Shown: piece by piece, positions 6,655 through 56,149 of the stretch
Numbering within the stretch: the first letter of the stretch is position 1
Layout: each line of letters opens with the position of its first letter
Source of the DNA: Halegenticoccus soli
Lineage (GTDB): Archaea > Halobacteriota > Halobacteria > Halobacteriales > Haloferacaceae
Assembly (NCBI RefSeq): GCF_002844195.1
Contig: NZ_PEND01000004.1
Location: forward strand, 1 to 64,000
DNA length: 64,000 nt
Direction: 5' to 3'
The notes under the pieces: generated by a model
Databases searched by the model: none
Told to the model about the DNA's origin: nothing
What the model saw: only the letters and a program-made list of their open reading frames with translations
Translations under genes and position numbers: made by a program

Positions 6655-8153
6655 TTACGAGGTCCAGTACGTGCGCGTGAGCAGCACCAGCACGGGGATG
6701 ATCTCGATGCGGCCGATCCACATGAGGAACGTCATCGCCAGCTTGGTGCTCGTCGGAAAGTCCGTGAACCCGGCGAACGGGCCGGCGATCCCGAACGCCG
6801 GCCCGATGTTGAGAAACGTCGCCGCCGCGGCGCTCATCGCCTCGAACTCGGTGAGCGACAGCCCGGCCCGCGCGCCGTCGGCGACGATGAACACCGTCGC
6901 GAGGAAGAAGATCACGATGCTAAGCAGCGTGTACCCGTAGATCTGATTCACGGCGTCCTCGTCGACGACCTCGCCGCTCAGCCTGACCGGCCGAACCGCG
7001 CGCGGGTGAACCGTCGTGAAGAGCGTCCGGCGGAACGCCTTGAGGACGACGAGCCAGCGGAGCGCCTTGATGGAGCAGGTCGTGCTGCCGGCCATCCCGC
7101 CGGTGAACATACACAGAAAGAGGACGTTCTTGGCCGCCGGCGACCACGCGTCGAAGTCCGCGCTCGCGTACCCCGTGGTGGTCACGATCGACGTCACCTG
7201 AAACAGCGAGTGCCGGAGGACCTCCTCCGCCGTCAGGTCTCCCTGCGCCGGATCCGCGACGAGAAGGGCCGCGACGACGAGCGTGAAGAAGACCAGTACC
7301 CCAGATAGAAGTGTAACTCCTCGTTCCGCCGGAGGCGCGAGAACTCCCCGCGCGTGACCTGGTACAGGAGGACGAAGTTGACCGCACCGACCGCCATGAG
7401 CGGGACCGTCGCCCACTGAACCGCGGGCGAGAACGCGGCGATGCTGTCCGCCCGCGGCGAGTAGCCGCTCGTCGAGACGGCGGTGAAGGCGTGTGCGACC
7501 GCGTCGTACAGCGTCATCTCGGGGGCGAGCCCGGCGAGCCGAAGCCCGTAGAGGGCGCCGACGGCGAGGAGCGTCAGCCCGAGGTAGAGCTTTCCGAGGA
7601 GGGCGGCGGTTTCGGCGATCCGCGGGGTGAGCTTGTGGAGGTCCCGCGTCTGCGTCTCCGTCTCCATGAGCTGCGCGCCGCCGTACGAGAGCGTGCTGAG
7701 GACGGCGATCGCGAGGACGAGGATCGAGAGCCCGCCGAGCCACTGCAGCAGCGACCGCCACAGCATGATCGCCCGGGAGTGCGCCCCGAAGTCGACGACG
7801 ACGGTCGCGCCGGTGGTCGTCACCCCGCTCATGCTCTCGAACAGCGCGTTCACCGGGTGCGCGAGCACGCCGTTGCCGGCGAGGACGAACGGCACCGCGC
7901 CGACGAGCGCGAGCGACAGCCAGGTGAGAGACACCATGAGGAACGCCTCCCGTCCGCCGAGGTCGGGGTCGGGGTCGAGGCGCTCCAGCAGGCCGCCGAG
8001 CGCGACGGCGACGGCGATCGCGGCCGCGAACGGGGCGACGTCCTCGCGGTCGGCGACCGCGACGAGGAGGGGCAAAAGGAGCGGGCCGGCGCTCCACTTC
8101 TGGATGGTCCCGACCGTGCTGAGGCTCGCGCGCCAGTCGACTCGAACCGCCAT
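6655..8153 (-). pseudogene. trkH: TrkH-family potassium uptake protein, frameshifted
   Basis: Start MAVRVDWRASLS at 8153. Four selectivity-filter loops are readable in order: SGVTTTGAT, TAVSTSGYSP, VTTTGYAS and LNIGPAFG, and the ending WIGRIEIIPVLVLL is the TrkH signature. The first two loops are in one frame and the last two in another. The switch lies at a C run (CCCC, 7299-7302; GGGG on the coding strand). One more G would join HFYLG to VLVFFTLVV and give a normal protein of about 499 residues. Without a partner TrkA or in its intact form this would be the membrane subunit of a Trk potassium uptake system. A homopolymer sequencing error is as likely as a real mutation. Confidence 0.85.
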
Positions 8154-37293: not shown

Positions 37294-38076
37294 CTAGCCG
37301 AGGAACTCTTCGACGCCCCGGGCGGGGTACCCGACGACGACGTCTGCGCCGGCTTCCTTGAGCGCCCTGACGCGGTCGCCCACTTCGGCCGGCGCGCCGA
37401 CGAGCGCGTAGTCGCGGGCCGCAGAGAGGAGCACCTCGCGGGCGCGACCGGTCGCGGACGAGTCCGCCGCCGCGCCGTCGGGCAGCGCGCGCGCGACCGG
37501 TCGGCGGCGCGAGACGTAGGCGCCCACCGCGTCGAGCACCGCGTCCTCGTCGTCCGTCAGCACCGTGGGGGCGTACACCGCGAGCTCGCCGTCGAAGCCG
37601 GCGGCCCGGAGCGCGCGGAAGCCGCGCTCGGTCGTGCGCGAGAGCAGCTCGTACTGCGTCCCGCCCGCCGCGAGCGCGACCCGCTCGACGCCCTCCGTGC
37701 CGACCCACGCGTCGGGGACCCGCTCTCTGGCCGCGCCGAGGCGCGGCGCGATGGCGCGCGAGCGCTCCCCGTCCGTGAGGTACGCGGGGTGACCCGCGAC
37801 GAGCACCTGGCCGACGCCCTCGGGCACCCAGTCGTAGAGCGAGTCGTCCCCGAGGGGGTCGAACCCGTCGGCGCGGACGGGCGTCGTGAGCCGGACGTCT
37901 ATCTCCCCGGCGAGCTCGCGGAGCGTCTCGGCGTCGGGGAGGCGTTCGTGCCCCTCGTAGTCGATGGCGACCGACCCGAGCGGCAGGTCGAGCGCCCGCC
38001 GCACGTCGCACTCCGCGGGCTTCAACGCGGCCGCGTCCAGCCCCGTCTTCGCCAGCGCGCGCTCACCGGTCAGCAT
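37294..38076 (-). CDS. Luciferase-like (F420-type barrel) family protein, haloarchaeal (DUF7388-type)
   Basis: 260 residues. No complete known domain, but several stretches recall the bacterial-luciferase/F420-dependent reductase fold: FRALRAAGFDGELAVYAPTVLTDDEDAVLDAVGAYVSRR, then YALVGAPAEVGDRVRALKEAGADVVVGYPARG, which is how Mer-like proteins end. The N-terminal half lacks the usual substrate loop. I recall this as a haloarchaea-only DUF (about DUF7388). The function is unknown; an F420- or flavin-binding role is inference. Confidence 0.6.
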   Translation of the reverse strand: MLTGERALAKTGLDAAALKPAECDVRRALDLPLGSVAIDYEGHERLPDAETLRELAGEIDVRLTTPVRADGFDPLGDDSLYDWVPEGVGQVLVAGHPAYLTDGERSRAIAPRLGAARERVPDAWVGTEGVERVALAAGGTQYELLSRTTERGFRALRAAGFDGELAVYAPTVLTDDEDAVLDAVGAYVSRRRPVARALPDGAAADSSATGRAREVLLSAARDYALVGAPAEVGDRVRALKEAGADVVVGYPARGVEEFLG

Positions 38077-38313
38077 CGGCCGTCACCTCGTTCGGTATCA
38101 CTGTCGAGAAGATCCTGTTCACCGTCGCGGAACGCGATCCATCGTCTGTGCGACCATGTGATCTCCCGTACCGCCGTCCGCAAAATAAGGTTGTCGTTGC
38201 GCCCAATACTCCGATCCGAGCGCCGATCGGCGATTGCCGCTTCGTCGCGGGCGCGCGGCGGCGGTTCGCCGCGGTCGCCAGCGGTGGTTCGCCGTAGGCC
38301 GCCGCCCGCCGCC

Positions 38314-46436: not shown

Positions 46437-49400
46437 TCACTCCCGTCGGCACGCCGCGTCGCCGCGGTCTTCACATCCGGGGGAGGGCCACCCGGCCGAC
46501 CGCTCGTCGGCGTTCCCGTCGACGTCGCCGACGCCGGTGCCGCCCGGCGGAACCGCCACGACGACGATCGTCCCCGTCTCGAACGACACGCGCTCGTTCC
46601 GCCCGAGGCGTTCGTCGTCGCCGTCCCCGTCGACGTCGAGCGCGACCGCCGCCCCGTCGCGGACGTACCGGACGGTCGCCCCGCCGCCGTCGGGTGCGCC
46701 GGTTCGCGCCCGGACGGCGAAGCGGTGGTACTCGCCGCGGACCGTGACCGTCCAGACGTTGACTGTCGCATACCAGTACCCGGGGACGGGCGCGACCGGC
46801 AGGCCCGCGGGGGCCGCTCCGAGCGCGTCGCCGATCCACCGCGTTTTCGCCCGCTCGGTCGCGTTTTCCAGCCCGCGCGAGACGAGTCGTTTCACCGCTC
46901 GTCGACCCAGTTCGCGGGTCGTCGCCGCCGTGCGGTTCGTCGGTCGCTCCGCGACGCGGGCGGCGTCGCTCCGCACCGCCCGTCCGAGTTCGACCCGGAG
47001 CAGCACGCCGAGCCTGTCAGCCCGCCGGCGCGAGAGATCCCCGCTCGCGCGCGCCTCTGCCGCGATCGCGCGCGCGAGGGACCCGTTCGACGCGGCGATC
47101 GCGCGGCGGCCCCTCCCGTCCCACCGCCGCACGGCCGCGGTCACGACCGCTCGGCGCTCCCGCGCCGACAGCGCGGTTTCGCGCCGGAGGACGCCCCGCG
47201 ACTACCGGCGGACGACGGCGAGCGCCCGTCCGACCGACTCGTCGAGACGATCCCGCCGCCCTCGAAGGGTTTCGTTCCCCGTCGCGGCCAGCGTTCGGTT
47301 CGCGGCGACGAGCGCCCGGCCCGCCGTCCGCAGCGCGACTCGATCGTCGCGGCCGAGGAGCGCGTTCACGACGCCGTCCGCCGCGTCGTCGTAGGGGGCG
47401 GTGAAGACGTTCACGTTGCGCGCCGTCAGCGGCCGGTGCGATCCGCCGTCGGGAAGGGCGTCGACGCGGTCGCCCTCCACGGTCGAGAGCGTGAGATACC
47501 CCGGAGATCCGTCCGGAACGACCGGAAACGGGTCGCTCGGCCCGTCGGTTCCGAGTTCGGCGCGAGTCGGTCGCGTCGCGTTCTCGCGCGCGGCGAGGAC
47601 GGCCCGCAGTCGATCGCCGGCTCCGACGCCGGCGTCGCCGAGGGCGCGCTCGAACCGCCCGTTCGTCCGCGAGGTCCGCTCCGCCCGCGCGTCCAGCGCT
47701 CCGATCACGCGGTCCAGGTACGCCGCCCGCGCCGCGACGCGCGCCCTGTCCGCGGCGCCGGCGGATCGATCAGCGCCGCCCGACGCTCGCGGAGCTCGGC
47801 GGCGAGCCGGGCGGGCGGATTCGCTCTGCCGGTCGCAATCGCCCCTCCGGAGGCGACGACCGAGACGTTTCGAACGCGCTCCCGGAGCGCCGAGACGTCG
47901 CGGTACGCCCACGTCGAGAGCCGGTCGGGGCGCGTCCCGTACACGATTATCGAGGTCCGACGGAGCGATCCGTCGACGGCGCGCCGGGCGATCGCGTCCG
48001 GGCCGCCGTTGGCGTCGACGAGGCGCTTCCGCGCGGTCGCCGGAACGTCGGCGAGGTTGGGGCCGTCCACCGCGCCGCCTGGCTCGAACGTCGGCCGCGT
48101 GGGCCGCGAAGGCGCGCGCCCGTGGGGATCGTACTGCCCCGTGAGAGCGATCGTGACCCGATAGCGGTCCCGTCACTCGGCGCGGCGCTCTCTCGTCCGA
48201 TTCCCCTTCCGCCACGTTCGGACGATCCGGTGGTGCACCGTGACGTCGCGGGCGTCCGTCTCGAATATCGAACTCGATACGGACGGGTCGTTCCGGTTCG
48301 CCCCCGATCCGATTCTGAACGAGTCCCCGACGGCGGGGCGACGGTCGCCGCCGGTCCTATCGACGGTGATCCGATCCGCCGTTCGCTCCCCCGCGAGCGT
48401 CCAGTTCGGACCCGGCGGTCGGCGGCGCGGCCTGTCGCCGTCGCGCGTTTGAGTCACGTCGGTGCGAAGCCTCGCCTCGGTGCGGTACGATCCGCGCAGC
48501 GTCCCCTCGAAGGACTCCTCGTCGCCCGCGGCGACGAACGCGGCGAACGCTTCGTCCGCGGACCGGTTCACGCCGACCGTCACGCCGTCGTCGGCGTCGC
48601 GTGCGGGGGCCGGATCGAGCCGGGGGATCGGACCGTCCTCGATCGGTCCGTTCGGCCGCACGACGACGGTTTCGGCCCACTGTTCTCCCCGCAACGGGGT
48701 CGCCGCCAGGAGGTCCTGCACGCCGACCCGGGCGGTCGCGCGGGCGAGTCCCCGTCCGGCGGCCGGATCGCTCCGCCCGAACACCGATCGCTGGACGGCC
48801 AGGACGCCGCCGTTCGCCGAGAGTTCGACGTGGCGGTTGGCGACGACGTTCTCGATCGGAGCGCCGCCGTACTGGCCGTAGCCGCGCGCCCACGCCACCG
48901 GGTACAGTCGGGCCGTCAGCTGCCGACCGAGTCCCGGTCCGTCGAGCGGCCCGCGGTTCAGCCGCCGCTCGAACGCCCCGGTTCGCTCGTGGAGCGCCAA
49001 CACCGGCGCGGCGACGGTGAGCGTCACGCTCCGGGACTCGCGGGCGACCGTCCTGCCGCCGCGCTTTGCCGTTCTCGCCACGTTTCGGACGACAACGCGC
49101 AGCGCCGTTCCGTCGGCGACGGGCTCGACGCTCACCCGACGCTTCGCCGGGCGAAGGTCGGCCGCACCGTCGACCGCCGGGAGCGACGCGACCGCGACGA
49201 CGTCTCCCCGGCGGTAGCGCGTCTCCTTGAGCTTTGCCTCGGCCCGGAGATAGATCCGAATCCGGAGCGCGTCGCGGAACGGCGCGGTTTCGTTCAGCGC
49301 CCGCCCGGCCGGCGTCGACGCCGGCGCGGTCACCGGCGCTCTCGCGGCGTCGCGAGCGGCCTCCCGGACCGCGCTCCGAAGCGCCGTCGCGGCGTTCGCC

Positions 49401-49552
49401 TCGACCCGATCCATCGCGGCCTCGACGGCGCGGTCCTCGATCGTCGGCCCGCGGGTCGACACCGTCGACGCGAACGCGGCGCTCGTCACGAGCAGCAGCA
49501 CGCCGACGAGCGCGAACGGTACCCGCGCCCGCCGGTCGTCGGCGAGCTTCAC
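46437..49552 (-). pseudogene. Large pilus-associated accessory protein (DUF7286-type), broken
   Basis: Intact, this would be about 1,038 residues. The start MKLADDRRARVPFALVGVLLLV is a membrane anchor. Coding quality is clear to HHRIVRTWRKGNRTRERRAE, then TGA at 48173-48175. The same frame continues convincingly after it (RDRYRVTIALTGQYDPHG and on). Near 47750-47780 the frame changes by one base (AALIDPP to ADRARVAARAAYLD). TAG at 47202-47204 interrupts that frame, which again continues (SRGVLRRETALSARERR) to 46437. Three lesions mean a decayed gene. It closes the type IV pilus-like operon. Confidence 0.75.
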
Positions 49553-49571: not shown

Positions 49572-50453
49572 TCACGGCGACCACGTCCGGACGGTGATTC
49601 GGACGGATCGAACGTCCACGGTCCTGGCGGCGGCTCGCGGGGTCTCGAACCTCCGGCGGAGGTCGCGCTCTATCGCCGTCGACAGCGCCTCGGCGAGCCG
49701 GTCGTTCGCCGCCCCCGTCCGGTCCCGCCTCGCGGCGTTCTCGACGTCGCCGGCGTCTGCGCCGTACAGCGCCGCCGTTCGGAGGTACCTGTACGTGACC
49801 AGCTCCGGAAGCGGGTAGTCGTCTCGAAGCGCGAACCGGGTCCGCTCGGGCGGGAACAACCCGCCGACGATCCGATCGGCGACGACCCCCGCGACCGCCC
49901 CGAATCCGCCCCGCTCCGCGGCGGCGATCGCGTCACTGCGGGCCGCCGGCAGCCCGCTCGGCGCGGCGAGCGTCGCCGCGTGGACGGCGGCGCCCGCAGG
50001 AGGCGCTTCCCCGACGGCGAGCCTGCCCTGCAGGTGCGAACCGGGGTACGGCCGCCATACCGCGACGACGTGCGCTCTCGGACCCGTCGCGTTTCTCACC
50101 GCGCGACGCACCTTCCGGGCGAAGTCGTCGCCGGTTCGGGTGAGACGTTCTCCCCGAACGGTCGGCCGCTCGACCGCCGCGTCGGCCAGCAGCTCGGCGT
50201 AGGTCCCGTGGGCCGTCCGATCGAACTCCGGTCCGTCGGTCTCCGGAAACGGGACGAGCCGCTCGTCCGCCCGTCTCGCGCCGGGCGCCAGCGTGTACCG
50301 GACGTTCGTCGTGCTCGTCGCCAGCACTTCCGCCGTCGCGTCGGCGGTTCCTCCCTCCGCGGGTCGATCCGCGCCCGGAACCGCGACGAGCGTCGTCGCG
50401 GCCGCGCTCAGGAGGACGAGACAGAGCGTCGCGTCGAGCGCCGCGCTGGTCAC
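49572..50453 (-). CDS. Membrane-anchored pilus accessory protein (DUF7284-type)
   Basis: 293 residues. An N-terminal helix (LDATLCLVLLSAAATTLVAVPG) is followed by ATAEVLATSTTNVRYTLAPG, ELLADAAVERPTVRGERL and a long extracellular helical part with VRITVRTWSP at the end. It belongs to the set of haloarchaeal proteins (DUF7283-7286, number tentative) encoded beside secretion ATPases. Role unknown; probably part of the pilus or its basal complex. It overlaps the preceding gene by four bases. Confidence 0.7.
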   Translation of the reverse strand: MTSAALDATLCLVLLSAAATTLVAVPGADRPAEGGTADATAEVLATSTTNVRYTLAPGARRADERLVPFPETDGPEFDRTAHGTYAELLADAAVERPTVRGERLTRTGDDFARKVRRAVRNATGPRAHVVAVWRPYPGSHLQGRLAVGEAPPAGAAVHAATLAAPSGLPAARSDAIAAAERGGFGAVAGVVADRIVGGLFPPERTRFALRDDYPLPELVTYRYLRTAALYGADAGDVENAARRDRTGAANDRLAEALSTAIERDLRRRFETPRAAARTVDVRSVRITVRTWSP

Positions 50454-50866
50454 GCCCAGACCACCACGCGGAGCTTGCCCGGCGCGATCACGCCGGGGCC
50501 GAGCCGGACGCTGACCGGCCGAGACGCGCTGTCAACCGTCGCAGTCGCTGCCCCGGTCGCCGCTTTTACCGGCGGCGTCGGTCCCGCGGTCCACTCGCGT
50601 CCGTCCGCGCGGACGGTGACGTTGAGGCGGTACCCGTCCGGACCGGCGGCCGGTCCCTCGCTGACGGATTCCGGCGCGACGACCCCGCCGGTGGCGAGCG
50701 CGTCGTGCACGCGTCCGAGCGTCGGCTCCGCGAGGTCGCGGTCGGTCCCCGGCAGCGCCTCGTCCAGAACGCCGGCGTACAGCCCCAGCCCGAGACAGAC
50801 GGCGAACAGGGCCGCGAGCGCGACCGTCGGCTCGGCCTGTCCCCTACGCGCCGACCAGCGTGACAT
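50450..50866 (-). CDS. Pilin-like accessory protein (DUF7285-type)
   Basis: 138 residues. MSRWSARRGQAEPTVALAALFAVCLGLGLYAG has the look of an archaeal class III signal peptide: basic n-region, a Gly followed by QAEP, then a hydrophobic core for PibD processing. The mature part is a small beta-rich domain with LNVTVRADGREW. It may be a minor pilin. It overlaps the upstream gene by 23 bases. Confidence 0.7.
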   Translation of the reverse strand: MSRWSARRGQAEPTVALAALFAVCLGLGLYAGVLDEALPGTDRDLAEPTLGRVHDALATGGVVAPESVSEGPAAGPDGYRLNVTVRADGREWTAGPTPPVKAATGAATATVDSASRPVSVRLGPGVIAPGKLRVVVWA

Positions 50867-51314
50867 CGACTCCCTCCCACGAGGTGCGCCGCGCGACGAG
50901 CGTCCGGTCGACCGACGCCCACGTCGGCTCCCGCGTCCGCGCGTCGATGATCGCCTGCCTGAACGCCTCGGGGGAATCGAACGCGCGGTCGGGCGGCGTC
51001 CCGTACAGCACAGACTCCAGCGGCGAGTTCGATCGGACGGGCGTCACGGGACCGAACGCGAACGACGCGTGGGCCGTCCCGCCGTCGCTCTTGAGGCCGA
51101 TCCGGTGCGGCCCGAGTCTGACCGCGGTCGCGTCGAGGGGGTGCTCGGCGGTCGCCGGGTAGTCGCTCGCCGCGACGGAGTCGACCGTGTCGGCGATCCC
51201 CGCGGCGTCCGGCGGCGCCGCCGTCGGGAGCGACCAGGCGGTCCCGAGAATCGCGGCGCTCGCGAGCGCCGCGCCGAGCCAGCCGTACCACGCGTCGAGT
51301 GGAACGTCGAACAT
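50844..51314 (-). CDS. Membrane-anchored pilus accessory protein (DUF7283-type)
   Basis: 156 residues from the ATG at 51314. MFDVPLDAWYGWLGAALASAAILGTAWSLP is an N-terminal membrane helix. The rest is extracellular with ATAVRLGPHRIGLKSDGG and SPEAFRQAIIDARTREPTW. Haloarchaeal family of the pilus cluster (number tentative). A longer upstream frame exists but its extra residues are not like a coding start. The gap to the platform gene is 82 bases, so this gene may have its own promoter. Confidence 0.7.
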   Translation of the reverse strand: MFDVPLDAWYGWLGAALASAAILGTAWSLPTAAPPDAAGIADTVDSVAASDYPATAEHPLDATAVRLGPHRIGLKSDGGTAHASFAFGPVTPVRSNSPLESVLYGTPPDRAFDSPEAFRQAIIDARTREPTWASVDRTLVARRTSWEGVDVTLVGA

Positions 51315-51396
51315 GGTCCGGGATGGTCCCGTTTTCGCACTTAAACATCGGGTGCCGTCCGATCGATAGTCGGCCGATCTTCGGTCCGTCTCCGCA

Positions 51397-53160
51397 TCAG
51401 ACGAACACCCCGGCACAGACGACGGCCGAGAGGTACGTCGCCGTCGCGGCGAGAAGCGCCAGGCCGACGCGGTAGCCGACGAGCGCGCGGTCGAACCCCC
51501 GTTCGAGCCCGACCGAGAGCCCCGTCAGGAGCGCGGCGAGCAGGAGAACGTACGCGCCGACGGCGGTCCCCAGATCCGCGGTCGAAAGCGCGGCGCCGGC
51601 GCTCATTCCGGCGCGATCGAGGTTCCCGCCGGCCGCGGCTCCGGCTCCGACTCCGACTCCGGCCCCGGAGACGCGCGAGGCGAGCGCGACGGTCGCGCCG
51701 CCGACGAGCGGCGCGAAGACGGCCGCCGTGTTAGCGAGCGTCCCGGTCACCTGAGACAGCTCCCGCCGCGCGTCGCGTTCGGCCCGCCGGAGTTCGTCCA
51801 GCTGATCCGCCATCGCGACGAGGACGTTGCCTGCCGGCCGTCCCTCGGTCGCCGCGAGCGCGAGCAGACCCGCGGCTCCGCGGGCGCGCGGGCTCGGAAC
51901 GTCCGAGAGCGCCCCGTACGGGCCGAGGAACGCCGCCCGAACGTCGACTCGAAGCGTTCGCAGGACGCGGACGGCGTCGCCGAGAACCGCGCCGGCCGGC
52001 CCGGAGACCTCCTCGCTCGCCCGCGCGAGAGCCGCCTCGACCGACTCCCCCTCGGACACCCGTCTTCCGACGAGATAGAGCGCGTCGGGGAGCCCCGATT
52101 CGACGGCCCGAACGCGGTCCCGGACGGCCTTCACCGGCCGATACCGGACGAAGAGCGCCGCGCCGATCCCGCAGCCGAGACCGGCGATCGGCCCCGCCCA
52201 TCCGATCATCGCGGTCGCGGCGATCCACGCGACCGCCGCGGCGCAGCAGCCGACGGCTGGCGCCGGCCACGTTCTGTCGGGGATCCCCGGGTGGGTACGG
52301 TCGACCGTCGGCGGCGGAAACGCGACCGGCCGCCGCGCGAGCAACCACGCGCCGGCGGCGACGAGCGCGGCCGGTAGCGCGACGTCGTAGAGGAGGACGA
52401 ATCCGGAGAGCGTGACGCCGACTCCCGCGACCCGCGCCGCGGGGAGGACGCCGACGAGCGCCAGCGGCAGGAGCACGCCGAAGGCGTACAGCCCGGTCGC
52501 CGGGCCGCGGACGGCCGCCGCGAACGCGGTCATCCGGTCGCGCGTTCCTTCGAGAACCGCCGACAGCGCCCGATCCAGCGTCCGTCCCCGCTCGGCGGCG
52601 GGGGCCTCGGCGCTCGCGACGAGGAGGGAGGTCGCCCTGTCGAGCGCCGGAAACCAGTCGGCCCACTCGGTGGCGAAGCCGTCGAACCCCGTCGCGGGCG
52701 TCCCCTCCGCTCTCCGGACGTGTTCGTCGAGGCTCCGCGCCAGCGCGCCGTCCCCCGTTCGGGCGGCGAAGCCCGCGGCCCGCTCGGGCGACGGTTCGAT
52801 CCGCATCCGGAGCACGGCGCGGCCTAACAGGCCGGTCGTCGAACCGAGAGCCCTGGTCCGGCGGGCGCGTGCCACCGCCGACGGAAGGGCGTGGACGACG
52901 TGCGTCGCCGCGGCCGCCGCCGCGAGCGCCGCCGGAACCGCGAGCGCTCCGGAAGCCGAACGGACGAGCGAGCAGACGGCGAGCGCGCCCGCGCCGCAGA
53001 CGATTCCGGCCCCGTAGCCGGCGCGGACGACCGTCTCCGGTGCGAGGTCGTCGCCGACGTAGGTGAGCGATCGGACGAGGTCGTCGCTCGGCTCGACTTC
53101 GAGCGGCCACAACCGCGCGAGCGCCCGGCAGAGGCAGAGTACGACGCGCGCGGTCGTCAT
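51397..53160 (-). CDS. Type II/IV secretion system membrane platform protein (TadC/PilC-like)
   Basis: 587 residues in two similar halves, each with GspF-type helices: FAAAVRGPATGLYAFGVLLPLALVGVLPAARV, and LYLVGRRVSEGESVEAALARASEEVSGPAGAVLG with the repeat DELRRAERDARRELSQVTGTLANTAAVFAPLVGGATVAL. This is the inner-membrane platform that couples the ATPase to pilin extrusion. The start overlaps the ATPase stop by four bases. Confidence 0.9.
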   Translation of the reverse strand: MTTARVVLCLCRALARLWPLEVEPSDDLVRSLTYVGDDLAPETVVRAGYGAGIVCGAGALAVCSLVRSASGALAVPAALAAAAAATHVVHALPSAVARARRTRALGSTTGLLGRAVLRMRIEPSPERAAGFAARTGDGALARSLDEHVRRAEGTPATGFDGFATEWADWFPALDRATSLLVASAEAPAAERGRTLDRALSAVLEGTRDRMTAFAAAVRGPATGLYAFGVLLPLALVGVLPAARVAGVGVTLSGFVLLYDVALPAALVAAGAWLLARRPVAFPPPTVDRTHPGIPDRTWPAPAVGCCAAAVAWIAATAMIGWAGPIAGLGCGIGAALFVRYRPVKAVRDRVRAVESGLPDALYLVGRRVSEGESVEAALARASEEVSGPAGAVLGDAVRVLRTLRVDVRAAFLGPYGALSDVPSPRARGAAGLLALAATEGRPAGNVLVAMADQLDELRRAERDARRELSQVTGTLANTAAVFAPLVGGATVALASRVSGAGVGVGAGAAAGGNLDRAGMSAGAALSTADLGTAVGAYVLLLAALLTGLSVGLERGFDRALVGYRVGLALLAATATYLSAVVCAGVFV

Positions 53161-55061
53161 TCGGTTCCGCCCCCGTCTCGATACGCCGCGACGACGTCTT
53201 CCGGTCGGGTGCGCTCCGCGTCCGCGAGAGCGGCGAGGAGCGACTCGCGGTCTTCCAGCGCGGTCAGGAGCGCCGCGTACGACTCGCCCGGCCGAGCGAG
53301 GCTCGCGACCAGCTCGCTATCGCCGCGAGCGATCGCGCCCGTCGGCGCGAGTCCGTCCTCACCCGGCGCGTAGAGCGGCTCGAAGTGCACGCCGTCCACC
53401 GCCGTTCGAACCTCCTCGATGCGCGAGACGCGACGCCGGTCGTCACCTCTCAGGGTCGCCACCAGGTCCGTCGCGCCGAACGAGGACTCCGGCACGCCGA
53501 GATCCGAGACGACCCGCTCGCGGACGGCGTCGCCGCCGTCGCCGTGGATCGTCCCGAGCACGGCGCTGCCCGCGGCGCCGACCCGCATCGCCTCGTACAG
53601 CGCCGCGGCCTCCTCGCCGCGAACCTCGCCGACGACGAGCGCGCCCTCTCCGAGCCGAAGAGCCGTTCGGAGTGCGTCCGTGGGCGAGAGCACCGCGTCG
53701 TCGTCGGTTCCGACCCGCAGGCGCTGCACGTCGCGCCCGCGCTCTTGGAGCGCCCGAACCGGCAGCTCCGGGGAATCTTCGATGACGACGGTGCGGGTCG
53801 CGGCCGGCAGCTCCCAGAGCAGCGCGCCGAGGGTCGTCGTCTTCCCCGCGCCGCGGGTACCGGCGACGAGCGCGGCCGCCGATCGCTCGACGGCGACGGA
53901 GAGGAGCGCCGCCGCGTCCGCCGGCACGGTTCCGTTGGCGATCAGACCGGGGAGCGTCCACGCGTCGCCGCCGTGTCGCCTGAAGGCGAACGCGAGGCCG
54001 TCGCTCGCCGGCGCGGTCACGCCGGCGACGCGGACGCGCCCCTCCCCGGTCGACGGCTCGACGACCGCGTCGATCGTCGGGTGCGCGCGCGAGAACGCCC
54101 GGCCGCTCGCGCGCCTGAACCGCGAGGCGAGGGCCGCCGCGCCGCCGGGCGTCAGCCGGACGTTCGTCCGCATCCGCTCGCCGTCGACGGTGACGCGGAC
54201 GGGGTTTTCGGTCGCGGGAGCGGTGACGAACGCGTCCGACACGCGCGGATCGGCGAACAGGTCGTCGAGCACGCCGTGGCCCCGGGTGTACCGCTCCAGC
54301 ACCGCCGAGAGCCGCTCGACGGGGTCAGCCTCGTCGGCGACGCGACGGACGGCCCGTCCGGGCGCCCGAGCCCCGCCCGAGACGCCGCCGGACGCGAGCA
54401 GTTCGGCGGCCGCCGCGAGCGTCGACGCCTCCCCCTCGCCGAGCGCGTGCGCGACCGGTTCCAGGTGGTACACCCGCCGATCCAGACCGGCGTCGTAGAT
54501 CCGGACGGCCGCACCCGTGTCGAGTGGCCAGCGGTCGTCGAGCCGCGCCCCGGCCGGCGGTCGGATCGTCACGCGGGAGCGGGCGATCGTCGGGCCGACG
54601 AACGGCCGGAGCGCGTCGCCGTACCCGTCCGCCCTCGCCGCGCCCTCGGCGAGCCCCGTCTCCGCGGCGATGGCCGCGACCGGTCCCGCCCGCCCCGTCG
54701 CCTCGCGGGCGGCGCGAAGCGGGTCGCTCGCCGCGACCTCGGCGAGCCGCCCGTCGTGAAACGCCGCGCGCTCGACGAACCGCCCCGCCGCGAGGAGCAA
54801 CGCCGCGGCGCCGTCGACGTACTGGCGTTCCCGCCCGTCCGCGCGGGTCCGAACGGCGTCGGCGTCGCGCCGTGAGAGGGCGCCGACGACGGTCGCCCGA
54901 CAGTCGGACTCCGCCGCGAGATCGCCCCCGCCGGGGCAGTCGTCGCTCTCGACGACGAGATCGACGCGGTCCGAGCGGCCGATTCCGGCCGGTTCGACGA
55001 ACATCGCCTCGCAGCGACAGGTCCGATCGTCCGGGTTCCGCAGCCAACGAAGCACGTTCAT
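53157..55061 (-). CDS. Type II/IV secretion system ATPase (PilB/GspE-like)
   Basis: 634 residues. N-terminal domain with CRCEAMFVEP and DDCPGGGDLAAESDC, Cys pairs typical of haloarchaeal pilus ATPases. The AAA motor has Walker A AGTRGAGKTTTLGALL, the Asp box VVIEDSPELPV, Walker B LGEGALVVGEVRGEEA and the His box VLGTIHGDGGDAV. It powers pilin assembly together with the platform gene just downstream. No PilT-like retraction ATPase is present. Confidence 0.92.
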   Translation of the reverse strand: MNVLRWLRNPDDRTCRCEAMFVEPAGIGRSDRVDLVVESDDCPGGGDLAAESDCRATVVGALSRRDADAVRTRADGRERQYVDGAAALLLAAGRFVERAAFHDGRLAEVAASDPLRAAREATGRAGPVAAIAAETGLAEGAARADGYGDALRPFVGPTIARSRVTIRPPAGARLDDRWPLDTGAAVRIYDAGLDRRVYHLEPVAHALGEGEASTLAAAAELLASGGVSGGARAPGRAVRRVADEADPVERLSAVLERYTRGHGVLDDLFADPRVSDAFVTAPATENPVRVTVDGERMRTNVRLTPGGAAALASRFRRASGRAFSRAHPTIDAVVEPSTGEGRVRVAGVTAPASDGLAFAFRRHGGDAWTLPGLIANGTVPADAAALLSVAVERSAAALVAGTRGAGKTTTLGALLWELPAATRTVVIEDSPELPVRALQERGRDVQRLRVGTDDDAVLSPTDALRTALRLGEGALVVGEVRGEEAAALYEAMRVGAAGSAVLGTIHGDGGDAVRERVVSDLGVPESSFGATDLVATLRGDDRRRVSRIEEVRTAVDGVHFEPLYAPGEDGLAPTGAIARGDSELVASLARPGESYAALLTALEDRESLLAALADAERTRPEDVVAAYRDGGGTE

Positions 55062-55088: not shown

Positions 55089-55556
55089 TCAAATCCCGCC
55101 CCGCGACCGGCGGACGATCACGGTCGGCGCGCCGTTGCGCCGTTCGAGCGTCATCCGCAGCCGGTGGACGCCGGGTTCGCGCAGGCTGATGGCCCCTCCG
55201 GGCGTCCGGAGGGCGACTCCGTCTACCCGCCTCCGCTCGACAGATCCGCCGGAGAGCCTGTAGGTCACGGTCGCGCTTCGACACCGCGGTCGGGGGCAGC
55301 CGATCCGCACCGCTTCGACCGGTTCCGCGGTCCACGATCGGCCCGGCAGTCTGATCTCGACGGTCCGACGCGCACCCGGCGTCCCCGGCTCGACGGGATC
55401 CTCTCGGGCCGCGAGGTCGCGGGCGGTGCGCTCGAAGCGGTCGAGATCGGCGTCGAGCCGCGCCGCGGTCCGATCGGCCCGGGCGTCGTCGACCGCGGGA
55501 AGCGAGGCGGCGAAAAGCGCGACGGTCAGCGCGGCCGCCAGCACGATCCGTATCAC
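55089..55556 (-). CDS. Membrane-anchored pilus-operon protein (DUF7311-type)
   Basis: 155 residues, starting at a GTG that overlaps the upstream stop (GTGA). The N-terminal helix (IRIVLAAALTVALFAASLPA) is followed by a helix of acidic/basic heptads and a beta domain with TVEIRLPGRSW and HRLRMTLERRNGAPTVIV. Haloarchaeal family always seen before the ATPase gene (number tentative). It may be a pilus base component. Confidence 0.7.
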   Translation of the reverse strand: MIRIVLAAALTVALFAASLPAVDDARADRTAARLDADLDRFERTARDLAAREDPVEPGTPGARRTVEIRLPGRSWTAEPVEAVRIGCPRPRCRSATVTYRLSGGSVERRRVDGVALRTPGGAISLREPGVHRLRMTLERRNGAPTVIVRRSRGGI

Positions 55557-56074
55557 AGCACCGCGCGCAGACGATCGGCGAGGTTCGTCGGGCGCCCGTC
55601 CCCGTCGGCGTCGGTCGCCGCCTCGACCGAGTCGGCGTCGGTCGACGCGTCCCCGCCCTCGGTCGCATGCGATCGGTCGACGTCCAGGGAGGCGTCCGAA
55701 CCGGCCGATCCCTCGGCCGAAGCACCACTCGATCCCCGGATCCCCGCGACGACCTCGTCGAACTCGTCGACCTCGTCCCCGCGCGTCGGGCCTCGACGCG
55801 CCGCTTCGAGCGCTTCGACTCCGGCGAGCGCCGCGTCCGCGCGTCGTTCGACGTCGCGGTTGACCGCGCGGACGTTTCCGACGTAGCCGCGGAGCGCCAT
55901 CGTCGCCGCCTCGAGCTCGGCGACGCGGTCGTCGAGGCGTTCGACCGCTTCCGTCAGCTCTTCGAGCCGTGCGTCCCGCTCCGCGGCGTCGGCGATCCCG
56001 TCGACGCTCCTCTCGTCGCCGATCAGCGCGCGCTCTACGGCCGCAAGCCGCTCTGCGAGTGCCGTCTCGTCCAT
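55553..56074 (-). CDS. Coiled-coil protein of the pilus operon (DUF7310-type)
   Basis: 173 residues from the ATG at 56074. Residues 1-95 are a coiled coil (LAERLAAVERALIGDERSVD, then LEELTEAVERLDDRVAELEAATMALRGYVGNVRAVNRDVERRAD), the rest an acidic, Ser/Ala-rich tail ending LADRLRAVL. First gene of the pilus operon. A TATA-like TTTCAAATACG (56096-56106) is 27 bases upstream. Confidence 0.75.
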   Translation of the reverse strand: MDETALAERLAAVERALIGDERSVDGIADAAERDARLEELTEAVERLDDRVAELEAATMALRGYVGNVRAVNRDVERRADAALAGVEALEAARRGPTRGDEVDEFDEVVAGIRGSSGASAEGSAGSDASLDVDRSHATEGGDASTDADSVEAATDADGDGRPTNLADRLRAVL

Positions 56075-56095
56075 AGGTGCGGGTTCTCCGGTCTT

Positions 56096-56106
56096 CGTAT
56101 TTGAAA
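56096..56106 (-). promoter_or_regulatory. TATA box of the pilus-like operon
   Basis: Minus-strand TTTCAAATACG centred 27 bases before the ATG at 56074, the leaderless distance. It lies in the only AT-rich patch of this gap. Confidence 0.5.
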
Positions 56107-56149
56107 TTGTCAGGGTAGCGTTGAGTAGCGGAAGAGACACGTGTTCGGT

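Follow-up and report, generated by a model that had tools for sequence, protein, structure and literature searches.

What has become of the largest gene of a type IV pilus-like operon in Halegenticoccus soli? In the window analysed here, a stretch of 64,000 nucleotides from contig NZ_PEND01000004.1, the DUF7286 gene (46437 to 49552 on the minus strand, with a GTG start at 49552 and a frame that ends at 46437) is very likely a real and recent pseudogene, and the archaeal type IV pilus-like machine of which its product would be an obligate component is predicted not to work in this genome, as one case of repeated loss. Pfam profile searches find family PF23957 spread over three pieces of the gene: 48173-49552 matches positions 1-432 of 1000 (553.7 bits, E 1.6e-165), 47705-48172 matches positions 435-581 of 1000 (156 bits, E 2.1e-45) and 46437-47201 matches positions 765-1000 of 1000 (313.1 bits, E 7.5e-93), against a curated cut-off of 27 bits. 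A single full-length frame of approximately 1000 residues is absent, the gene being interrupted by two stop codons and a 13-base deletion. The orthologous protein of Halegenticoccus tardaugens, the only other Halegenticoccus genome compared, is intact at 1,039 residues (L009 6001-9120) and 66-68% identical. When it is used as a tblastn query, its residues 1-597 align in one frame of the gene and residues 606-1025 in a second, and each frame contains one stop. There is no second DUF7286 copy in the H. soli genome, both matches being the two frames of this same gene.

The three lesions were read from the assembly of one genome of this species, and their columns were scored in an alignment of 33 intact DUF7286 relatives. 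The first is an in-frame TGA after 459 residues (48173-48175, minus strand), and the third is an in-frame TAG (47202-47204, minus strand) with coding similarity on both flanks; the open reading frame list and the sequence place both where a preliminary description of this DNA had put them. That description had also reported a one-base frame change near 47750-47780, and although the place is right, the alignment resolves the lesion as a net 13-base deletion with a frame shift (junction at 47757-47764 on the minus strand, at about 47760/47759). Five residue positions are lost, a P-x-T-Y-D stretch of which the P and Y are invariant in all 33 intact relatives. Stop-codon readthrough cannot rescue the gene, because the frame change cannot be bridged. 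The proposed origins of the stops from CGA and CAG codons fare less well. The TGA column is occupied by Trp in 12 of the 33 relatives, including H. tardaugens, and by Ala, Val or Thr in the others, never by Arg; since it is Trp in the close relatives, a CGA precursor is unlikely, and an ordinary single transition explains the TGA. The TAG column is variable, so that CAG is unsupported and the precursor codon cannot be named. The description of the gene as a three-lesion pseudogene is nevertheless supported by the intact ortholog in H. tardaugens, the disabling lesions here and the lack of another copy.

Could the gene really be open, and the lesions be errors of sequencing or assembly? The assembly is in 15 contigs, the lesions are those of the consensus sequence, and a trkH gene in the same window is likewise shifted by one base at a run of G, so that some consensus errors are possible. 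However, homopolymer-type errors would not take the form of two substitutions and a 13-base deletion, and they are an unlikely source given the 13 bases of the middle lesion; the Trp column of the TGA requires only a single transition. Three lesions in one gene also contrast with a single further clear lesion attributable to this genome among approximately 127 gene-like ORFs, in a comparison of 164 kb with syntenic H. tardaugens DNA that is noisy in GC-rich sequence. Stop-to-stop ORF scans gave many false calls from antisense frames, and only cases checked by eye were used. Sequencing error in the DUF7286 gene is thus unlikely, and we give very little credence to a gene that is really open. 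The other clear lesion is the one-base frame change at the G run (around 7300) in the third trkH copy; this gene for a TrkH-type cation transporter falls into two frames (6658-8147 of the window, minus strand) and is one open frame in H. tardaugens, and the two other TrkH genes of the genome are open. Synteny with H. tardaugens breaks and flips at approximately 38000-38300, with the 38 kb before that point inverted relative to the rest of the window.

The lesions are recent, because the H. tardaugens gene is intact. Against that species, dN/dS is 0.35 for the DUF7286 gene (993 codons), 0.23-0.50 for the rest of the operon and 0.20 in the median for 24 neighbouring control genes (0.11-0.36), and DUF7286 pairs from other genera give 0.15-0.26. 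With outgroups, changes unique to one lineage fall at 36 DUF7286 sites in this genome and at 57 in H. tardaugens, and p3 and DUF7284 likewise have more changes in H. tardaugens than in this genome. Neither dN/dS against the sister species nor lineage-unique changes reveal relaxed selection specific to DUF7286 here, and dN/dS shows that the gene was under constraint until lately. A random single change in the gene makes a stop in about 2.7% of cases, so that two nonsense mutations correspond to approximately 75 unconstrained substitutions at equal rates, or some 2.4% per site. This is a rough estimate, and with a dS of 0.69 for the species pair it agrees with a loss well after the species split.

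The same figures bear on whether the gene has been split into at least two separately made proteins that still work together. All of the pieces are coding-like, the last has an in-frame GTG at 47144, and dN/dS is not consistently raised in the pieces after the stops (0.24 in the last). However, low dN/dS is equally expected from recent loss, the deletion takes out invariant residues, and the third piece (47205-47759) has no plausible signal. Nor did a survey of the family turn up relatives with a clearly similar split at these positions, a finding that would have spoken against a pseudogene. A working split is exceedingly improbable, and we return to a pseudogene, of which the only possible product would be the 459-residue N-terminal fragment, without the strongly conserved C-terminal half. 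Because only such a fragment could be made, a machine that does not function is predicted, although in principle the fragment could keep a partial function.

All other genes of the operon, likewise on the minus strand, are intact, as had been noted for those upstream. They encode the DUF7284 protein (49572-50453; PF23955, E 7.2e-95), the DUF7285 protein (50450-50866; PF23956, E 9.1e-41), the DUF7283 protein (50844-51344; PF23954, E 2.6e-57), a putative platform membrane protein of the T2SSF/TadC/PilC-like kind (51397-53160), a T2SSE/TadA-like motor ATPase with a Cys-rich N-terminus (53157-55061), the small DUF7311 membrane protein (55092-55589; PF23993, E 2.2e-46) and a predicted coiled-coil protein without a Pfam match (55553-56114). 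The small membrane protein genes therefore number four with DUF7311, not three as first described. The ATPase is stop-free over 634 codons and matches the PF00437 profile, of the T2SSE/VirB11 kind (E 2.3e-19; 69.7 bits against a cut-off of 24.9), and it also matches a TadA-family NCBIfam model at E 2.7e-32, under the model cut-off. The platform protein scores 20.3 bits against PF00482 (E 5.9e-4), under the cut-off of 25.2, and its gene has the usual place after that of the ATPase. By pattern match alone, DUF7285 fits a class III (prepilin-type) N-terminal signal pattern, RGQAEPTVALAALFAVCLG, and DUF7311 does so less convincingly; the pattern is absent from DUF7283, DUF7284 and DUF7286. There are six T2SSE-like genes in the genome, and other pili may therefore exist in this organism.

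The intact DUF7286 gene of H. tardaugens does not stand in an intact operon. Its ATPase gene falls into two reading frames, with the break at nine consecutive G near residue 342 of 634, ahead of the Walker A motif; this may be a pseudogene, an error, or a site prone to slippage. Split H. tardaugens ATPase sequence lies at L111 8231-10119 (minus strand) and L009 566-2478. The same machine is thus broken independently in both Halegenticoccus species examined, in different genes. The preliminary description had offered two branches, that the machine has lost a component or that this protein is dispensable. The first is the better one, and it can be widened: with the break in the H. tardaugens operon falling in the ATPase, what is being lost is the machine and not DUF7286 in particular. 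Both losses may reflect a relaxed need for the machine.

What of the second branch, in which DUF7286 is accessory and dispensable, and its loss alone leaves the machine working? The other operon genes here have open frames, and their constraint is similar to that usual in the family; DUF7286 alone is broken in two further genomes, by one TAG in G226 and by a frame change in G282, the latter seen against a relative 96-99% identical. However, among 170 family genomes surveyed for DUF7286, the ATPase and the platform, DUF7286 sequence is present in every one of the 143 genomes that have the platform gene. The 27 genomes without a platform, seven of them assigned by elimination, comprise 21 without DUF7286 and six with a partial DUF7286 only (G150, G296, G319, G355, G361 and G398); a full-length DUF7286 without a platform was seen in none of the 170. 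So strict a pairing with the platform speaks for DUF7286 as a functional member of the machine and against its being optional, and the labels accessory and dispensable are unsupported. DUF7286 is intact in most of the 149 family genomes that have it, and single-gene lesions occur in its partners too: the ATPase is broken in G383 and G367 as well as in H. tardaugens, and the platform in G325. Several operon genes are broken in G301. In these cases most of the remaining operon is present. Clean single-gene lesions number about three in DUF7286 (3.1 kb), three in the ATPase (1.9 kb) and one in the platform (1.75 kb), so that per kb they are not concentrated on DUF7286, although the counts are small and single lesions in genomes of low completeness may be errors. 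A machine that still works without DUF7286 is accordingly improbable, and DUF7286 as an obligate component of the machine remains the preferred reading.

Beyond single-gene lesions, the operon is partly deleted in G311, and only remnants are kept in G150, G355 and G398. In G150, decayed C-terminal DUF7286 remnants lie at L110 9844-10810 and the rest of the operon is gone. Contig breaks (G246, G285 and part of G367 and G395) were excluded from the lesion counts, and TGA flags in the ATPases of G386 and G400 were dropped, as the alignments have no internal stop. In G245, a genome of another family, the last approximately 94 residues of DUF7286 lie some 7.5 kb away (L112 9558-17100), as if by a mobile-element insertion or a rearrangement.

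How might the pieces fit together? The DUF7286 protein is probably a large, membrane-anchored, extracellular component that would belong obligatorily to the archaeal type IV pilus-like machine. Its structure is of limited help: modelled with AlphaFold from 20 relatives, the intact protein of H. tardaugens gives a poor structure (mean pLDDT 55, pTM 0.40), which suggests just an N-terminal hydrophobic helix and has no PDB match at E <= 0.001. We infer that the machine is off in this strain, even though the genes for its motor, platform and small pilin-like proteins retain open frames. The whole system would have been inactivated repeatedly and independently in the family, elsewhere by lesions in DUF7286, the ATPase or the platform or by disappearance of the whole operon, and would have been caught early in the process here. 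A bolder alternative is that selection in haloarchaea switches the DUF7286 pilus-like system on and off repeatedly, for example because the filament is a virus receptor or an energy cost, with many species caught with one fresh break and the nine-G run in the sister ATPase perhaps even a reversible switch. We regard this as a long shot, and continue to favour repeated loss of the machine.

The gene belongs to the DUF7286 family by its profile match across the pieces and by its neighbours, DUF7283, DUF7284, DUF7285 and DUF7311, which stand in the order found in relatives; the copy here, though, cannot be translated as one protein. A literature search found no papers naming any of these five families. 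Among archaeal type IV pili, Makarova et al. 2016 (PMC4858521) describe a subclade 4F whose ATPase is Cys-rich at the N-terminus and which has an S-layer-like protein and a coiled-coil protein of halobacteria (arCOG07564). The operon shares with it the Cys-rich ATPase, the coiled coil, small pilin-like genes, a large protein of secreted type and a putative TadC-like platform, but the platform match here is under the Pfam cut-off. It appears most like subclade 4F by gene content rather than by an ATPase tree, an assignment that we offer as a lead. The characterised pilB1 and pilB3 loci of Haloferax volcanii, whose genome also encodes the DUF7286 family, are described as belonging to clades 4C and 2 (PMC6491452). 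The pilB-pilC loci of that species resemble the operon in pairing an ATPase with a platform, several to a genome (PMC6491452), and the literature searched gives no function for the DUF7286 locus.

Inactivation of a gene by small lesions is in itself an ordinary phenomenon. The added interest lies in the independent breaks in two sister species and in the co-occurrence that makes DUF7286 a testable obligate component, whereby one broken gene becomes evidence on an uncharacterised protein family. If DUF7286 is obligate, as its behaviour suggests, deleting it from a laboratory haloarchaeon would be expected to abolish the machine. This machine, widespread in haloarchaea, is lost repeatedly through small single-gene lesions, and the two Halegenticoccus species, each with a different gene broken, are natural controls for its purpose.
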